This document shows positions 40,457 through 51,489 of a stretch of DNA of 51,646 nucleotides, piece by piece (the first letter of the stretch is position 1; each line of letters begins with the position of its first letter). A program made the position numbers and the translations under genes. Origin of the DNA: Bacteroidales bacterium (GTDB taxonomy: Bacteria; Bacteroidota; Bacteroidia; Bacteroidales; UBA932); the NCBI GenBank assembly GCA_015060385.1, contig SUYO01000010.1, forward strand, positions 1 through 51,646, written 5' to 3'. Under the pieces are notes generated by a model. That model was not told where the DNA came from and ran no database searches. It saw only the letters and a program-made list of their open reading frames with translations.

Positions 40457-41407
40457 TCAATCCATTGACTGACCGGTCGTTACGGACATGACCAGCATGT
40501 TCACGTATTCCTCCGGCGTCACGGACGCGAACAGATGGTTCATCGGGTCGAGGACCACCGTATCCCTGACCACCTCGTAGTGGAGGTGCGGGGCGAACGA
40601 GTTTCCCGACACGCCGACATATCCGATGCGCGTACCACGATTTATCTTCCTTCCCTTGCGGACCTCGATGTCGGCCAGATGGGCATAGCGGGTAACATAG
40701 CCGTTGCCATGGTCGATCTCCACCACATTGCCGAGTCCCTTCCTCGAACGTGTCACGTTCTTCACGACACCATCTGCCGCAGCATACACCGGCTCGCCGG
40801 AAGGCGCGATCATGTCAAGACCGTTGTGCTGGACCGGAACCTTGTAGAAAGGGTTGATCCTGCTGCCGATGGAAGCACCCGTCTGGGCGAACGAATAATT
40901 CCTGAGAGGATTGGTCATAGGAGGCAGCACATAATCCTCCGAACCGATGATCTCCATTATCTTCCTGAAGTTCTCCTCGACCTTGTCGGCACTTTTCGCG
41001 ACATTATCAAGTCTTGCCGCCGAATGGAGCACGATATCCTGGTCCGGAATCGAGTCATAGCCGGCAAGAAAGTCGATGGACGTCAGAGGTTCCACATCCG
41101 GGGCAGAGGTATTGAATATCTCCTCGTAGATCGCGTCATCCCGTACCTTGAGGCCTTCCACCACATCCGAAAGCAGTTCCTCCTTGCGCTGGAGCTCGGG
41201 ATACTGTCTTTCATACATCCTGTTCTCACGTCTGAGAGCCTTCTCCTCGTCGGTACTGAACACCAGGGCAAAAATAACATAATACAGGACGGCCATGGAT
41301 ACGGAAGCGACAAAAAACATCAGTATCCTGCGTATGACCGCCCACACTGATGTCTTCTTCTTCCTGAACCTTATGTCGTCCTTGTCGAATATGTAGTTGC
41401 TGCTCAT
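40457..41407 (-). CDS. M23-family metallopeptidase (membrane-anchored)
   Basis: The 316-residue protein has a short cytoplasmic basic head, a transmembrane helix (about 26-50), a coiled-coil stretch (about 52-100) and a C-terminal LytM/M23 domain. Zinc ligands are His194 and Asp198 (HNGLD) and His276 (PHLHYE, 273-278). Such proteins cleave peptidoglycan cross-links or act as scaffolds in wall remodelling; all M23 ligands are present, so catalysis is possible. It overlaps the preceding paralogue by 4 bases (ATGA), so the pair is coupled. Confidence 0.93.
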   Translation of the reverse strand: MSSNYIFDKDDIRFRKKKTSVWAVIRRILMFFVASVSMAVLYYVIFALVFSTDEEKALRRENRMYERQYPELQRKEELLSDVVEGLKVRDDAIYEEIFNTSAPDVEPLTSIDFLAGYDSIPDQDIVLHSAARLDNVAKSADKVEENFRKIMEIIGSEDYVLPPMTNPLRNYSFAQTGASIGSRINPFYKVPVQHNGLDMIAPSGEPVYAAADGVVKNVTRSRKGLGNVVEIDHGNGYVTRYAHLADIEVRKGRKINRGTRIGYVGVSGNSFAPHLHYEVVRDTVVLDPMNHLFASVTPEEYVNMLVMSVTTGQSMD

Positions 41408-42426
41408 GAACGTGGCTTCACTTTGTTCCTGTGCGAAGGATGAAGGGTAAGCTTCTCCGACATGTCTGCTGTATTCTGCACCATCGTCGCGTACTCTTCA
41501 GGAGAGATGGTCAGGTCGTAGTAGTTGCTCGGATTGACCGGACTGCCTCTGTAGATCACCTCATAATGGAGATGCGGACCCGTAGACTTGCCTGAGTTGC
41601 CGCTCTCGCCTATGCACTCTCCCCTCTTCACCTTCATGCCTTCGACCACTCCGATGGTCTTCAGATGGGCATATCTTGTCTTGTATCCGAAGCCGTGGTC
41701 TATTATCACCTGATTTCCGTATCCGAAGAATTCGAAGCTCACCTTCTCGATCACACCGTCTCCCGTCGAATAGACCGGATTGCCCGGAGGCATGGCAAAG
41801 TCCACGCCGTTGTGGCGGGCGGTCCTTCCGTAGACAGGGTCGGTCCTGTAGCCGAAGCCGCTGGAAAGACGGTAGGTGCCGCGTTCAGGGTTGATCGGCG
41901 GAATCGCAGGGATGCATGAGGCCATGTCGCCGGCCCTCTTCGAAAGCTGGGCCACCTCGTCGAACGACTTGCTCTGGACATATGTCTTCTTCGTCAGGAT
42001 GTCCATGCGGACGGTCGTGCTCTTGAGCAGACCTTCGTGGTCCAGACCGTCGAGATGCGAATACCTGTTCACACCGCCGAAGCCTGCATTGCGGACCTCC
42101 GCAGGGATTTCATGCATACCGAAGATGGACCTGTATATGTCGTCGTCCCTCATCTGGAGGGCGGTAAGAGCGTCATCGTATGTATCGAGCTTCCTGTTCA
42201 GGACTTCCATCCTTGAACTCCACTCGGCATTCTGCTTCTTCAGCAGGGCCGTCTTTGGAAGTTCGAGTCCGAAGACTGAGGTGTACAGCCAGAAGTAGAG
42301 CACCGCGAGACACAGGCTCACGGCAAAGATGGTCACAGATTTCGCTATCTGGGACCTTCTGGAACGCTTCTGCACCTCGTACATCAGCGTTCTCGGGTTG
42401 AAAACGTACTTTTTACTTTTGGACAT
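41404..42426 (-). CDS. M23-family metallopeptidase, paralogue of the next gene
   Basis: The 340-residue protein has the same layout: basic head, transmembrane helix (about 28-50), coiled-coil region and C-terminal M23 domain with His205 and Asp209 (HNGVD) and His287 (PHLHYE, 284-289). Both paralogues share RDD(A/D)IY..IF (89-98 and 93-102), which shows a tandem duplication. The gene starts about 8 bases after a -7 box (42434-42441), so the leader is very short. It is the first gene of the long minus-strand run that includes dnaB and rnf. Confidence 0.93.
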   Translation of the reverse strand: MSKSKKYVFNPRTLMYEVQKRSRRSQIAKSVTIFAVSLCLAVLYFWLYTSVFGLELPKTALLKKQNAEWSSRMEVLNRKLDTYDDALTALQMRDDDIYRSIFGMHEIPAEVRNAGFGGVNRYSHLDGLDHEGLLKSTTVRMDILTKKTYVQSKSFDEVAQLSKRAGDMASCIPAIPPINPERGTYRLSSGFGYRTDPVYGRTARHNGVDFAMPPGNPVYSTGDGVIEKVSFEFFGYGNQVIIDHGFGYKTRYAHLKTIGVVEGMKVKRGECIGESGNSGKSTGPHLHYEVIYRGSPVNPSNYYDLTISPEEYATMVQNTADMSEKLTLHPSHRNKVKPRS

Positions 42427-42441: not shown

Positions 42442-42524
42442 GACAAAATCTGCTATTCTTCTATAAAAAATATTATTTTTTAATCAAAGTGCGGCTTGAG
42501 GTGGATTTTTACGGAATTAATACG

Positions 42525-42532
42525 TAAATTTG
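42525..42532 (+). promoter_or_regulatory. -7 box for alaS
   Basis: TAAATTTG matches TAnnTTTG and lies 20 bases before the alaS ATG. Confidence 0.55.
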
Positions 42533-42552
42533 CAAGTTCTAATTTACAAGAT

Positions 42553-45168
42553 ATGACTTCAAAAGAGATCAGGAAAGCATTTCTGGACTTCTTCGCTTCG
42601 AAGGGCCACCAGATCGTGCCATCGGCACCAATGGTCGTGAAGAACGACCCGACACTCATGTTCACCAATGCCGGCATGAATCAGTTCAAGGACTGGTTCC
42701 TCGGCAACAGCCCTGCAAAGTGGAAGAGGGTTGCGGACAGCCAGAAGTGTCTTCGCGTGAGCGGAAAGCACAACGACCTCGAAGAGGTAGGTCGCGACAC
42801 ATACCACCATACAATGTTCGAGATGCTCGGAAACTGGAGCTTCGGAGACTATTTCAAGAACGAGGCGATCGACTGGGCATGGGAGCTCCTTACAGACGTC
42901 TACAAGCTCGACAAGGACAGGCTCTACGCTACAGTGTTCGAGGGCTCTGAGGCAGACGGCACACAGCTCGACACCGAGGCGATGGAAGCATGGAAGAGGC
43001 ATCTTCCTGAGGACCGCATCCTCCTCGGAAACAAGAAGGACAACTTCTGGGAAATGGGCGATACAGGTCCGTGCGGCCCATGTTCGGAGATACATATCGA
43101 CCTGCGCGACGACGAGGAAAGGGCTGCCGTACCGGGAGCTGCCCTAGTGAACAAGGACCACCCTCTCGTGATCGAGATCTGGAACAACGTGTTCATGCAG
43201 TACAACCGCAAGGCAAGCGGCGAGCTCGAGCTTCTTCCCAACAAGAATGTGGATACAGGAATGGGATTCGAGCGTCTCTGCATGGCTCTCCAGGGCAAGA
43301 AGTCAAACTACGACACCGACGTGTTCACAGGCATGATCGCAAAGATCGAGGAACTTTCGGGACATAAGTACGGCAACACCACAGAGGAAGATGTGGCCAT
43401 GCGAGTGATCGCCGACCACATCCGCGCCATCAGCTTCTCCATCGCTGACGGCCAGCTTCCTTCAAACGTGAAGGCAGGATATGTGATCCGCCGAATCCTC
43501 CGCCGTGCAGTGCGCTACGGCTATACCTTCCTCGGATTCAACGAGCCTTTCATCTGCCGTCTCGTGCAGCAGCTCGTGGACGACATGGGCGAGTTCTACC
43601 CGGAGATCGTGAAGCAGCAGACCCTGATCGAGCGCGTGATCAAGGAAGAGGAGATGGCTTTCCTCCGCACTCTTGACAGAGGCATCCGCCTGATGGACAA
43701 CATCATGGCGAAATCAGCAGAGACAAAGGTGATTTCAGGAGAGGACGCATTCGTGCTCTACGACACCTTCGGCTTCCCTATCGACCTTTCTGAGCTCATC
43801 GCTTCGGAGAAGGGATACACCATCGACCTCGAGGGCTTCCAGGTAGAGCTCCAGAAGCAGAAGGACAGGGCACGCAACGCCACTGCCATCGAGTCGGGAG
43901 ACTGGGTCGAGTTCACCCATTGCGACAACATCGAGTTCCTCGGATACGATTTCACCGAACTCGAGGGCGTACAGCTCACACGCCACCGCACTGTCAAGGC
44001 AAAGAACAAGACAATGTACCAGCTCGTGTTCGAGCGTACACCGTTCTATGCGGAGATGGGCGGACAGGTAGGAGATACCGGTTACATCCTTTCGGAGAGC
44101 GGCGAGAAGATCAACATCGTGAACACCATCAAGGAGAACAATCTTACCATCCATGTTGCAGAGCGCATCCCTGCCGACTGCACCGAGAGCTTCAGCCTCC
44201 ATGTGGATGCAGAGAGAAGAATCCAGATCGAGAACAACCATACAGCTACCCACCTCCTCCACCAGGCTCTCCGCGAGATCCTCGGAACACATGTGGAGCA
44301 GAAGGGTTCATATGTAAGCGACAAGTCATTCCGTTTCGACTTCTCGCACTTCGAGAAGCTCAACGACGAGCAGATCAAGCTTGTGGAGAACCGCGTGAAC
44401 GAGCTCATCAGGGCAAACCATCCTCTTGACGAGAACCGCAACGCTACCATGGAACAGGCTCAGGAAATGGGTGCGATGGCCCTCTTCGGAGAGAAGTACG
44501 GCGACAAGGTGCGTGTCGTGAAGTTCGGTCAGTCATGCGAGCTCTGCGGCGGTACACATGCATCTGCAACAGGTCGTATCGGTTTCTTCAGACTTGTTTC
44601 AGAGTCAGCGATCGCTGCCGGAGTACGCCGAATCGAGGCTGTTACAGGAGTTCATGCAGAGGCTCTCGTAGACGAGATGGCGGCTACGATCCGTGCAGCC
44701 AAGGCTTTCTTCAACAATGTTCCTGACCTTGCCGGAGCAATCCGCAAGATGGTCGAGGAGAACGAGGCGTTCAAGAAGCAGATGGAGGAGATCGCAAAGG
44801 AGAAGACTCTTGCCCTCAAGGGTCAGCTCAAGGAGATGGCGAAGGTAGCCGGCGGCATCAGCCTTGTAACAATTGATGCTCCGATGGATCCTGTGATGCT
44901 GAAGAATGCGGCATTCATGCTCCAGAAGGAGACTGAGAAGTTCGCCATTGCGGCAGCTTTCGAGGCTGCAGGCAAGCCGCAGCTTCTGATGATGTATTCG
45001 GAGGACCTCGTGAAGGCAGGAAAGAATGCCGGCGCGGACGTCCGTGAGGCAGCGAAGCTGATCATGGGCGGAGGCGGCGGACAGCCGGGCCTTGCGACAG
45101 CAGGCGGAAAGAACACAGACGGTCTTTCAGCCGCTCTCGCAAAGCTGACGGAGCTCGCCACCTGCTGA
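42553..45168 (+). CDS. alaS: alanyl-tRNA synthetase
   Basis: AlaS charges tRNA-Ala and edits mis-charged Ser and Gly. The 871-residue protein has the class II core with motif 2 region [20 protein letters not shown] and the KEEEMAF connection, the editing-domain motif [13 protein letters not shown] and the zinc-type CGGTHA motif ([14 protein letters not shown]). A C-terminal Gly-rich [15 protein letters not shown] (C-Ala domain) ends it. The frame extends 19 codons upstream, past the -7 box, but translation should begin at 42553. Two competing hairpins lie in the gap after it. Confidence 0.97.
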
Positions 45169-45276: not shown

Positions 45277-47739
45277 ATGAAGAAGTTAGACCAGTTCATA
45301 TTGAAGTCGTTCATAGGACCGTTCATAGCGATCCTTCTGGTCGTCGTCTTCATCCTCATGATGCAGTTCCTCTGGCTCTACATCGACGAACTCGTCGGAA
45401 AGGGACTGAGCTTCAAGATCATAATGGAATTCCTGGGCTGGGGATGCATCACCATGCTTCCCCTGTCCCTTCCTCTCTCTACCCTGCTCTCCTCAATGAT
45501 GACCCTCGGTCAGCTCGGAGAGAACAACGAACTTCTCGCGATCAAGGCAGCCGGAATCTCGCTCCAGAGGATGTTCATCCCTCTGGCGATCGCCTGTCTT
45601 GCAATCAGCGTCGGAGCCTTCTTCATTTCAAATGACCTCATTCCGGTGGCATACAACAAGATCTACCAGCTCCGAGCCGACATCGGCAAGACCAAGGGTG
45701 AGATCAAGATTCCGGCGAAGACGTTCTACAACGGAATCGACGGATACATGCTCCGCGTCGAGGAGAGAAATGACGAGACCGGCATGATGCACGGAGTCAT
45801 GGTCTATGACCATACGGACAACAAGGGAAACACCCGTCTGACTCTGGCGGATTCCGCGACCATGAGCATATCGAAGGACAAGTCCTACCTTTCATTTGTC
45901 CTGTACAACGGATCGAACTACGAAGAGACCAACAACAGGAAGTACCGTGACACGACACTCCAGCTTCAGAAGATCGACTTCCGCAAGCAGGAACTGATCA
46001 TCCCGCTGGAGAACTATGCATTCCAGAAATCGGATTCCAGCAGGTTCAGCGACCAGGTCAAGTCGATGAACCTGGAGCAGCTCCACGAGAGCGAGGACTC
46101 GATCGGAAAGCTGAACTCGCAGGGAAAGATGAGGAACATGGAGTCGCTTGCCAAGTCAAGGACCCTGAGATACAACTCCCAGCTTGACACGGCATCGAAG
46201 ATAGTCAGGACGACTCCTTTCGTAAGGGAGGACCTCAACAAATGGAAGGAGATCGACAGGGAGATCGATGCGGTCCAGAGCGCAATCAACAACGCTGAGA
46301 GCCTCCAGCAGACCCTGAATTCATATTCGAGGGAAAGATACCACCACACATACACCCTCAGGCTCATCGACATCGAAGTATACAAGAAGTTCGCACTTGC
46401 GATTGCCTGCTTCATATTCTTCTTCATCGGCGCACCTTTGGGAGCGATCATCAGAAAAGGAGGACTCGGAGCATCTGCCATCATCTCCGTACTCTTCTTC
46501 GTGGCTTATTATGTGATCGACATCGCTGGAACCAAACTGGCGCGAGACGGAGCGGTCGGACCTTTCATCGGCGTCTTCTTCTCAAGCTACGTCCTGTTCC
46601 CTACCGGACTCTTCCTTTCATGGAAGGCAATCAATGACTCCACATTCTTCAACATGGATACCATCAAGATGGGATTCAGGAAAATAAAGACCAAGATAAT
46701 GGACAAGTTCAGGAAGACAAGAATCGTCTACATGGGTACGCCGGAATTTGCGGTTGCTCCTCTTGACGAACTCATACGGAACGGCTACAACATCGTGGGT
46801 GTGGTCACAGTGGCCGACAAGGCCAGCGGCCGCGGACTCAAGGTGAACGAAAGCGCCGTGAAGAAATATGCAGTCGAACACAACATCCCTGTCCTCCAGC
46901 CCCTCTCGCTCAAGGATCCGGAGTTCCTTGACGCGCTCAGGGCATGGAAGGCTGACCTGTTTGTGGTCGTGGCGTTCCGGATGCTGCCTAAGGTGGTATG
47001 GGAGATGCCTAAGCTCGGAACCTTCAACCTCCACGCAGCCCTCCTCCCTCAGTACAGAGGCGCGGCCCCTATCAACTGGGCCGTGATAAACGGTGACAGG
47101 ACCACGGGTGTGACGACATTCATGATCGACGACGGTATGGACACCGGAGGAATCATGTACCGCTATGATTGCCGCATCGGACCGGACGAAACGGTGGGAG
47201 AAGTCCACGACAAGCTCATGGAACTCGGATCGAAGCTCGTCGTCAATACTGTAGAGGCTATTACGGAGAACAATGTCGAGCTGCGAGTGCAGAGAAGTTT
47301 CATCCAGGGATCGGAGATCCTCAGACCTGCTCCGAAGCTTACCCGCGAGCTCTGCCACATAGACTGGAACGGAAAGACAAAGGACATCTACAACCTCATC
47401 AGAGGTCTCAGTCCTTATCCTGCCGCATTCACAGAGCTGACCAGGGACGAGAAGGTCCTGCAGATGAAGATATACAGAAGCGTGAAGGTCGAGGGAGAGG
47501 AATATGTTTCGATGCTCGCTTCATGCGGACTTGCAGAGGCCGAGCCGGGAACAGTCCTTTCCGACGGAAAGACCTTCCTTGCAGTGGCGACTGCGGACGG
47601 AGCAATCTCGGTTACGGAGCTCCAGCTTGCAGGCAAGAAGAAGATGGATGTAAAGAGCTTCCTCATAGGATTCAGGGAGCCTCAGACATACGGAACAAGC
47701 AAAGGTACCTCATCACAAGTGACAGGAAAGCATGCATAA
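45277..47739 (+). CDS. LptF/LptG permease fused to methionyl-tRNA formyltransferase
   Basis: One 820-residue frame covers two unrelated proteins. Residues 1 to about 465 are a LptF/LptG-type permease: helices near 12-34, 50-75 and 98-118, a periplasmic domain (about 120-365) and helices near 371-393, 405-425 and 430-455. LptF/G work with LptB to pull LPS from the inner membrane. Residues 475-820 are methionyl-tRNA formyltransferase: IVYMGTPEFAVAPL, then Asn584 and His586 (FNLHAALLPQYRGAAPI) and Asp622 (GMDTGG), the catalytic triad. No stop or frameshift separates them. An in-frame ATG at 46699 (Met475) looks like a normal Fmt start, so internal initiation is possible. The Fmt part would sit in the cytoplasm. 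Confidence 0.92.
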   Translation: MKKLDQFILKSFIGPFIAILLVVVFILMMQFLWLYIDELVGKGLSFKIIMEFLGWGCITMLPLSLPLSTLLSSMMTLGQLGENNELLAIKAAGISLQRMFIPLAIACLAISVGAFFISNDLIPVAYNKIYQLRADIGKTKGEIKIPAKTFYNGIDGYMLRVEERNDETGMMHGVMVYDHTDNKGNTRLTLADSATMSISKDKSYLSFVLYNGSNYEETNNRKYRDTTLQLQKIDFRKQELIIPLENYAFQKSDSSRFSDQVKSMNLEQLHESEDSIGKLNSQGKMRNMESLAKSRTLRYNSQLDTASKIVRTTPFVREDLNKWKEIDREIDAVQSAINNAESLQQTLNSYSRERYHHTYTLRLIDIEVYKKFALAIACFIFFFIGAPLGAIIRKGGLGASAIISVLFFVAYYVIDIAGTKLARDGAVGPFIGVFFSSYVLFPTGLFLSWKAINDSTFFNMDTIKMGFRKIKTKIMDKFRKTRIVYMGTPEFAVAPLDELIRNGYNIVGVVTVADKASGRGLKVNESAVKKYAVEHNIPVLQPLSLKDPEFLDALRAWKADLFVVVAFRMLPKVVWEMPKLGTFNLHAALLPQYRGAAPINWAVINGDRTTGVTTFMIDDGMDTGGIMYRYDCRIGPDETVGEVHDKLMELGSKLVVNTVEAITENNVELRVQRSFIQGSEILRPAPKLTRELCHIDWNGKTKDIYNLIRGLSPYPAAFTELTRDEKVLQMKIYRSVKVEGEEYVSMLASCGLAEAEPGTVLSDGKTFLAVATADGAISVTELQLAGKKKMDVKSFLIGFREPQTYGTSKGTSSQVTGKHA

Positions 47740-48397
47740 GACGGTCGTCATAATATGCGACGGAAGATTTCCGAAGTCGGAGTATCCGCGCTACCTCATC
47801 CGCACGGCGGACTTCATCATCTGCTGCGACGGAGCCCTGCAGAAGTTCCTGCGCGCCAGCGTGTCGGTCTTCGGCGAGAAAAGGCTGCCGGACGTGGTGG
47901 TCGGAGACATGGACTCGCTGTCGCCTTCCCTTCGCAGAAGGCACAGCGACATAATTGTCCAGATCGACGAACAGGAGCACAACGACCAGACGAAGGCCTT
48001 CAGATGGGCACTTGAAAATGTTCCGGGAATATCACAGATATACATCCTGGGTGCGACGGGCGAACGCGAGGACCATACTATAGGAAACGTCTCGCTCCTG
48101 ATGGAATACGCGAGGACGTACGACCTCGAAGAAATGGGCATCGGTGTCGAGATGATCTCGGACCATGCGACCATCTTCGCGGCGACCGACACGTTCGAGA
48201 TGGACTGCGGCGAGGGAAGAAGGGTGTCGATATTCAGCCCGGACAACAGCCTGAGGATAAGGTCCGAAGGGCTGGAATGGCCCACAGACGACGTTGTGTT
48301 CGACAACTGGTGGAAGGCAACGCTCAACAGGGCGACGCAGGACCACGTCAGACTGGAATTCAGTCACAGGTCCATTGCTTTGATAATGATGGATTAA
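47732..48397 (+). CDS. thiN: thiamine pyrophosphokinase
   Basis: The 221-residue cytoplasmic enzyme makes thiamine diphosphate from thiamine and ATP. Motifs are complete: VVVGDMDS (55-62), EHNDQTKA (82-89) and GATGEREDHTIGN (107-119). It overlaps the end of the LptF/G-Fmt gene by 8 bases, so it is probably translated from the same transcript. The product is the cofactor of the 2-keto acid enzymes needed in branched-chain amino acid pathways, some of which follow; this link is inference. Confidence 0.92.
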   Translation: MHKTVVIICDGRFPKSEYPRYLIRTADFIICCDGALQKFLRASVSVFGEKRLPDVVVGDMDSLSPSLRRRHSDIIVQIDEQEHNDQTKAFRWALENVPGISQIYILGATGEREDHTIGNVSLLMEYARTYDLEEMGIGVEMISDHATIFAATDTFEMDCGEGRRVSIFSPDNSLRIRSEGLEWPTDDVVFDNWWKATLNRATQDHVRLEFSHRSIALIMMD

Positions 48398-50877: not shown

Positions 50878-51489
50878 TTATATGTCACGCTGAAGCGTAA
50901 GGGTCTGGAGTAGAGACTTGTCGGCAGCGATGAGGCTGTTCATGTCCATATGGGTACATACTTCCTCCTTGAGGAAACGGGATGTGGATGCTGTGTCCGC
51001 AGGGTCCCAAGTAAGAAGGATGACATGGGTCTTGAGAGCCTTCAGCTTCTTGGCAAGCATCTCATGGTCAGCATCTCCACTGATCAGGACCACGAAGTCG
51101 AAGTCCCTGAAAAGTGTCAGCTCGTATGTATCGAGAGCAAACCATGTATCCACACCCTTCTCTATCACTCCTCCCTTAGGGTTGGTGCGAAGGTGCTTAT
51201 AATGGAAGATGACATCGTTCTCTATAAGCATGTCCTCGAACTTGCGTTCGTTGTAAAGAAGATTCCTAGACTTTGCGTCATCAGCCCTGTAACGTCCCCT
51301 ATAGTAATGGGACTCCGTAACATACAGACGATTCCTCTCAAGACCGTTGTCCTGGGCGATCTTCCTGCATATGAAGCTAAGCAGGGCCTTGAGGTTGACT
51401 TCCCTCTTCCCTGCAAAACCCTCGTTTATCTTTGCATAATATCCACCGTCAATGAATACTCCGATGGAAAGATTTTCTAGGTGTGGCAT
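50878..51489 (-). CDS. NYN domain (LabA/DUF88-like) protein
   Basis: The 203-residue protein is a PIN-like NYN domain: VFIDGGYYAK with Asp14 early, DTWFALDTYEL and VVLISGDADHEMLAKKLKAL in the middle, and SRFLKEEVCTHMDM near the end. The conserved Asp residues suggest Mg-dependent ribonuclease activity, but LabA-type proteins also have unknown roles. It is convergent with ilvE. A weak -7-like TAACTTTA (minus strand, 51512-51519) lies upstream. Confidence 0.85.
   Translation of the reverse strand: MPHLENLSIGVFIDGGYYAKINEGFAGKREVNLKALLSFICRKIAQDNGLERNRLYVTESHYYRGRYRADDAKSRNLLYNERKFEDMLIENDVIFHYKHLRTNPKGGVIEKGVDTWFALDTYELTLFRDFDFVVLISGDADHEMLAKKLKALKTHVILLTWDPADTASTSRFLKEEVCTHMDMNSLIAADKSLLQTLTLQRDI

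Follow-up and report, generated by a model that had tools for sequence, protein, structure and literature searches.

The window, by which we mean the whole stretch of 51,646 nucleotides of Bacteroidales DNA analyzed here, contains a gene that encodes an LptF-like permease and a predicted methionyl-tRNA formyltransferase (Fmt) in one frame, and this fusion is real and conserved. The gene lies on the forward strand at 45277..47739 and reads as 820 codons from ATG to TAA; the open frame is accompanied by matches to Pfam and NCBIfam models, and the uninterrupted frame proposed in a preliminary description of this DNA was thus borne out. The product is probably a two-function protein in which Fmt would be held on the cytoplasmic face of the inner membrane, and it carries the only Fmt match in the window's genome, which is 75% complete.

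The homologue search returned 7909 of 8000 scored candidates at an E-value of 1e-3 or better; the domain check covered the 120 matches listed (83–98% identity), and all three Pfam domains were present in every one of them (120/120). In the window's genus, a single frame of 791–862 codons spans both domains in 33 of 37 genomes. The remaining four comprise two with pieces only, near a contig start (G004 and G010), one without a match to the fusion (G014), and G025, where the gene is in two frames with the break in the permease part. This last case (G025:C269, L213) may be an error or a real break. More distantly, the fused frame is maintained down to 45–47% identity to the window's protein. Relatives with the same domain pair had been sought as a check on the preliminary description: close relatives are also fused, and the outcome in which all of them carry two separate genes did not appear.

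The sample names of the 80 nearest public records refer mostly to gut contents. Four of the listed homologues have an NCBI protein name, which in all four is methionyl-tRNA formyltransferase only; used alone, this name hides a permease. The preliminary description knew of no described LptF/G-Fmt protein, and, going by titles and abstract openings, no paper listed from the open-licence literature in PubMed Central seems to deal with such a protein.

The two halves of the protein

The C-terminal half is predicted to be a methionyl-tRNA formyltransferase from its scores, its catalytic triad, a conserved loop and its C-terminal domain. Formyl_trans_N (PF00551) matches at 46720..47250 on the + strand (residues 482–658; 124.8 bits), a region that includes the triad and Arg519, and Formyl_trans_C (PF02911) matches at 47335..47673, also on the + strand (residues 687–799; 76.7 bits, cut-off 21.1). 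The equivalog model for fmt, TIGR00460, gives 235.3 bits, which is above its cut-off of 201.5. The residues named as the triad in the preliminary description, N584, H586, and D622, lie in register with the Escherichia coli enzyme (1fmt), and neither they nor R519 vary in 48 aligned fusions, 47 of which are at 45–88% identity to the window's protein. The catalytic roles of the Asn, His, and Asp are known from work on E. coli Fmt. The loop G518 R519 G520 is likewise invariant in the 48 fusions and is aligned with the GRG of 1fmt; we take Arg519 to be the counterpart of Arg42 in the tRNA-binding loop of E. coli Fmt. Identity as a sugar formyltransferase or as ArnA was rejected by the scores (137.3 for the ArnA model NF005998, against a cut-off of 777), with fmt clearly ahead.

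A separate fmt was also sought in related genomes. In the family sample, TIGR00460 matches every fused genome at one place only (E ≤ 1e-25), with no second Fmt, and these single-Fmt genomes include 18 relatives from the genus at 97–100% completeness. No second, free Fmt was found in G000, the window's own genome (75% complete). G241 has two TIGR00460 places, both of which run from base 2 of a contig and cover mostly different parts of Fmt. Separately, one assembly (SUG854) holds two distinct Fmt loci, L043 and L055, at 81% and 73% identity to that of the window, which may reflect a mixed bin or a duplication.

The N-terminal half matches the LptF/LptG permease domain (PF03739) at 45295..46626 on the + strand (residues 7–450; 239.9 bits, cut-off 27.9). 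The match covers positions 2–353 of the 353 in the profile and is therefore full length; with the Fmt domains at residues 482–799, it bears out the earlier claim of a complete permease joined to a complete Fmt. Predicted membrane helices are present, with a beta jelly-roll and a helical insert (approximately residues 250–360) between helices 3 and 4. The scores against the LptF equivalog model TIGR04407 (157.3 bits) and the LptG model (100.9 bits) are below the respective cut-offs of 230 and 240, and we call this half LptF-like, rather than an LptF equivalog, because the curated cut-off is not reached.

Candidate partners are encoded elsewhere in the same genomes. G000 has a second PF03739 gene of 367 codons, for which the LptG model scores higher than the LptF model, with both scores below their cut-offs. 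LptB is matched at 2.6e-109 in G000 and is present in seven of the eight fused genomes searched, the one exception being 85% complete. All eight have a match to peptide deformylase; G000 has three such matches (C19, C11, and C22), and the seven other fused genomes have one or two each.

Distribution, gene neighborhood and number of joinings

A search of 199 genomes of the family found an Fmt match in 184, and frames were read in 183 of these (G216 was left out): 75 were fused, two more were fused but cut by a contig end, 102 were separate, and four were partial, one of which (G235) adjoins a contig end. In seven genera every whole frame read is fused, with cut frames counted as fused: g1 (19/19), g27 (1/1), g29 (1/1), g30 (17/17), g39 (16/17, with one partial), g40 (18/18), and g41 (3/3). 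Two genera are mixed, namely g26, with one fused and two separate, and g47, with one fused, one separate, and one partial.

Beyond the family, the whole protein was used as a query at E ≤ 1e-120. All 10 of the known fusions tried, which extend to 47% identity, are recovered at this threshold; three of four unfused controls also pass it, via the LptF part alone, and are separable by the span matched. With two candidates taken per genome, the fusion was not matched in 387 genomes from other families of the order, and among 395 genomes across the phylum it was matched in the window's own genome only. A search of 247 genomes of the class gave no further full-length match among the matches listed. 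One candidate from another family, G050 (frame 821), was rejected as a fusion, since two in-frame stops lie between its genes, which are separate.

In the 64 loci that were fetched, the two genes are fused in 22, abutting or overlapping in 28, and more than 1 kb apart in six, and lptF is absent from the stretch in eight. Of the 28 adjacent unfused pairs, 25 have fmt and lptF in different reading frames. In G083 and G103, for example, there is an 8-base overlap between the stop of lptF, which is read in another frame, and the probable start of fmt; G119, which has the same genus code as G083, is fused and has a tail of nearly equal length. Among the six other families fetched, the genes are adjacent in G050, four have lptF approximately 3.6 kb before fmt (a non-random sample, picked for having both genes on one contig), and one is without lptF. 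In three of those four (f24, f8, and f22), lptF and fmt are separated by two glycosyltransferase-like genes and a RibBA-like gene, as confirmed by Pfam for f24 and judged by eye for f8 and f22. Two further loci, L166 and L167 (from g31 and g32), have a ribBA-like gene, judged by eye, directly before fmt and an lptF-like match farther upstream, an order that partly resembles that of the other families.

In the window, the gene upstream of the fusion is alaS (42496..45168, + strand; PF01411, 660.8 bits), and the next gene downstream encodes a thiamine pyrophosphokinase (47732..48397, + strand; PF04263), whose first 8 bases, starting with its ATG, are shared with the end of the fusion. Within the stretch fetched for each locus, the AlaS C-terminus has a match in 21 of 22 fused and 20 of 34 separate loci, and thiamine pyrophosphokinase has one in 17 and 16 of them, respectively; these counts concern presence in the stretch, gene order being known for the window alone. 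Farther out in the window, both on the − strand, tandem peptidase M23 genes with a 4-base overlap (40457–42426) lie just before alaS, on the strand opposite to it, and an NYN-domain protein (50878–51489) is encoded downstream of an aminotransferase gene.

A tree was built from LptF and Fmt together, with 51 rows (50 of the 64 fetched loci and the window) and 777 columns; of the 14 loci left out, six have more than 1 kb between the two genes and eight lack lptF in the stretch. It contains four changes between the adjacent and the fused state, at least three of which are forced by well-supported branches (bootstrap range 3–5), a count of changes of state that does not separate gain from loss. 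The four fused groups are G119 of g47; g27, g29, g39, and g40; g1 and g41; and G061 of g26 together with g30. A single clade of all fusions is rejected (AU p = 1.64e-5), so that a single origin would need several later splits. Such a history, with one gain and then several splits, may have taken place; the only outgroup row, G050, is unfused, which favors gains, although it stands on a long branch. Since the tree was built from the same two proteins, it also leaves room for transfer of the locus. As far as sequence comparison can tell, joining likely happened at least three separate times. The preliminary description had offered the loss of a stop codon between neighbors as an alternative to tethering of Fmt at the inner membrane. 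This was right in kind; however, the change is fixed and is found more than once on the tree, and its starting point was a pair of abutting or overlapping genes, mostly in different frames, as described above.

Whether the joining was of any use to the cell is a separate matter. Both halves could work as before with no gain from tethering, an explanation that is compatible with a two-function protein and whose chances we place just short of even. Since 28 unfused pairs already abut or overlap, a small insertion or deletion can suffice to fuse the genes, and genera of one family live with either state, two of them being mixed. However, the tree requires no fewer than three changes of state, and the seven uniformly fused genera (three of them with 1–3 genomes) have kept the joined frame. 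Repetition and retention favor a use for tethering, whereas the ease of fusion favors tolerance. The stronger proposal, one of convergent evolution in which selection repeatedly tied the sole Fmt to the LPS-export machine and thereby coupled translation initiation and envelope growth both in space and in amount, is tentative and somewhat on the unlikely side.

The linker and possible internal starts

The two halves are joined by a basic linker (46630..46719, + strand, residues 452–481; 8 K+R and 3 D+E) that corresponds to the LptF tail plus the Fmt N-terminus of unfused relatives. In a structure model (pTM 0.47), in which the linker is among the least certain parts, residues 460–478 are predicted as a helix at low confidence. 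Linker sequence and length vary between lineages. Among close sequences, its pN/pS over residues 452–480 is 0.34, which is under 1; the permease (0.21) and Fmt (0.16) have lower values, whereas the permease insert (0.37) and the C-terminal tail (0.32) have similar ones, so that constraint on the linker is not above that on the insert or the tail. These values, which come from 24 sequences (the window and 23 others, after 75 were dropped, 60 for indels or divergence and 15 for being short), are rough, as synonymous change is near saturation.

The preliminary description had also suggested that Fmt is made from an internal ATG at 46699. This in-frame codon, Met475 (46699..46701, + strand), is indeed at the position given and would start an Fmt of 346 residues; it lies seven codons upstream of the Fmt core, a position comparable to the start site in many unfused Fmts. 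The long protein could act mainly as a permease, with free Fmt arising by internal initiation at Met475 or at a nearby codon and the fused form mattering little, an alternative that we regard as unlikely overall. Of 24 close sequences (the window counted), 23 retain Met475, as do 69 of 97 of the genus set; however, it is missing in the other 28, and none of 20 fusions from other genera has an ATG at this position. Met475 therefore cannot be a general source of Fmt; what stands of the suggestion is that, in the window's subclade, a separate Fmt could begin there.

Other start codons broaden the alternative without making it universal. An ATG, GTG, or TTG stands no more than 12 codons ahead of Fmt in 84 of 97 sequences from the genus set and in 9 of 20 fusions from other genera; when the limit is widened to 30 codons, the counts are 95 and 17, respectively (L164 and L211, in which the motif was not found, are left out of these counts). 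No such codon occurs within 30 codons in 2 of 97 and in 3 of 20. The latter three are from G074 (100% complete), G094 (98%), and G062 (85%), each with one Fmt match; the former two are L080 and L093, known from loci alone. In the four sub-windows within residues 457–480, synonymous change is low (3rd–13th percentile), which may point to internal initiation but is due in part to lysine codons and is suggestive only. In G074, with no start in 30 codons and one Fmt, the source of Fmt would have to be the attached form or a product cut from it, barring an unusual start, and the attached form is likely the working enzyme there.

Cleavage itself is the next alternative: the protein could be a polyprotein whose linker is cut by proteolysis to give a normal permease and a soluble Fmt. 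The linker does hold the only stretch of the model with a pLDDT below 50 (residues 457–464), and it varies between lineages, as noted above. However, no common cleavage motif is apparent in the linkers by eye, and their changes are under some constraint; we regard this explanation as decidedly improbable. Finally, an assembly or sequencing error that removed a stop codon, to which the window's origin in a fragmented, 75%-complete genome might have pointed, can be dismissed because the 120 listed homologues and 33 of 37 genus genomes carry the same arrangement, as do loci from many separate records; the stop or frameshift that such an error would have hidden did not appear.

Proposed mechanism and comparison with known systems

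For the two-function protein that we favor, the following history is proposed. The genes lptF and fmt would first have become neighbors; an overlap of their ends, read in different frames, would then have arisen, after which small indels would have brought both into one frame. The overlapping pairs, together with the likeness between the tails of G119 and G083, make this route from nearness through overlap to a shared frame a likely one. In the resulting protein, the permease half would join LptB2FG. Known LptF/G proteins have their C-terminus in the cytoplasm; by analogy, that of the permease half would also be cytoplasmic, which would place Fmt at the inner membrane. The further suggestion in the preliminary description, of a position near sites of membrane-protein synthesis, drew no support from the present results. 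Fmt would be active while attached, via a short, basic, and probably helical linker presumably derived from the old LptF tail, and in the window's subclade some free Fmt may also come from Met475. Tethering is proposed here from the known topology of these permeases, and any benefit that it may bring is likewise a proposal.

If the fused form works in this way, the formylated start tRNA of these bacteria would arise at the inner membrane, as the product of a component of the LPS pump. Two questions could then be put to a natural case: does translation initiation depend on an Fmt that diffuses freely, and are protein synthesis and envelope export matched in amount? The unfused sisters provide paired genomes for comparison, two of these cases sharing a genus code.

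Fmt as known from E. coli (1fmt and 2fmt) is soluble and free, whereas here it forms the C-terminal part of a permease-like membrane protein. Similarly, the fusion differs from the LptF and LptG permeases of known LptB2FG complexes (5l75, 6mhu, and 8frl) in bearing an enzyme at its C-terminus. Its permease half is approximately 90 residues longer than the Pfam profile, and similarly long lptF genes, of approximately 480–500 codons, occur in many unfused relatives. ArnA and other formyltransferase fusions likewise contain Formyl_trans domains inside a longer chain; ArnA acts in lipid A modification, and we know of no permease in it. The closest comparison is with the unfused lptF–fmt pairs of sister genera (G083, G089, and G103). 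In these, lptF likewise lies directly before fmt, abutting or overlapping it, and alaS and thiamine pyrophosphokinase are found in the fetched stretch of many, as in the window. The unfused pairs differ in having two frames with a stop between them, and these are different reading frames in nearly all cases (25/28).
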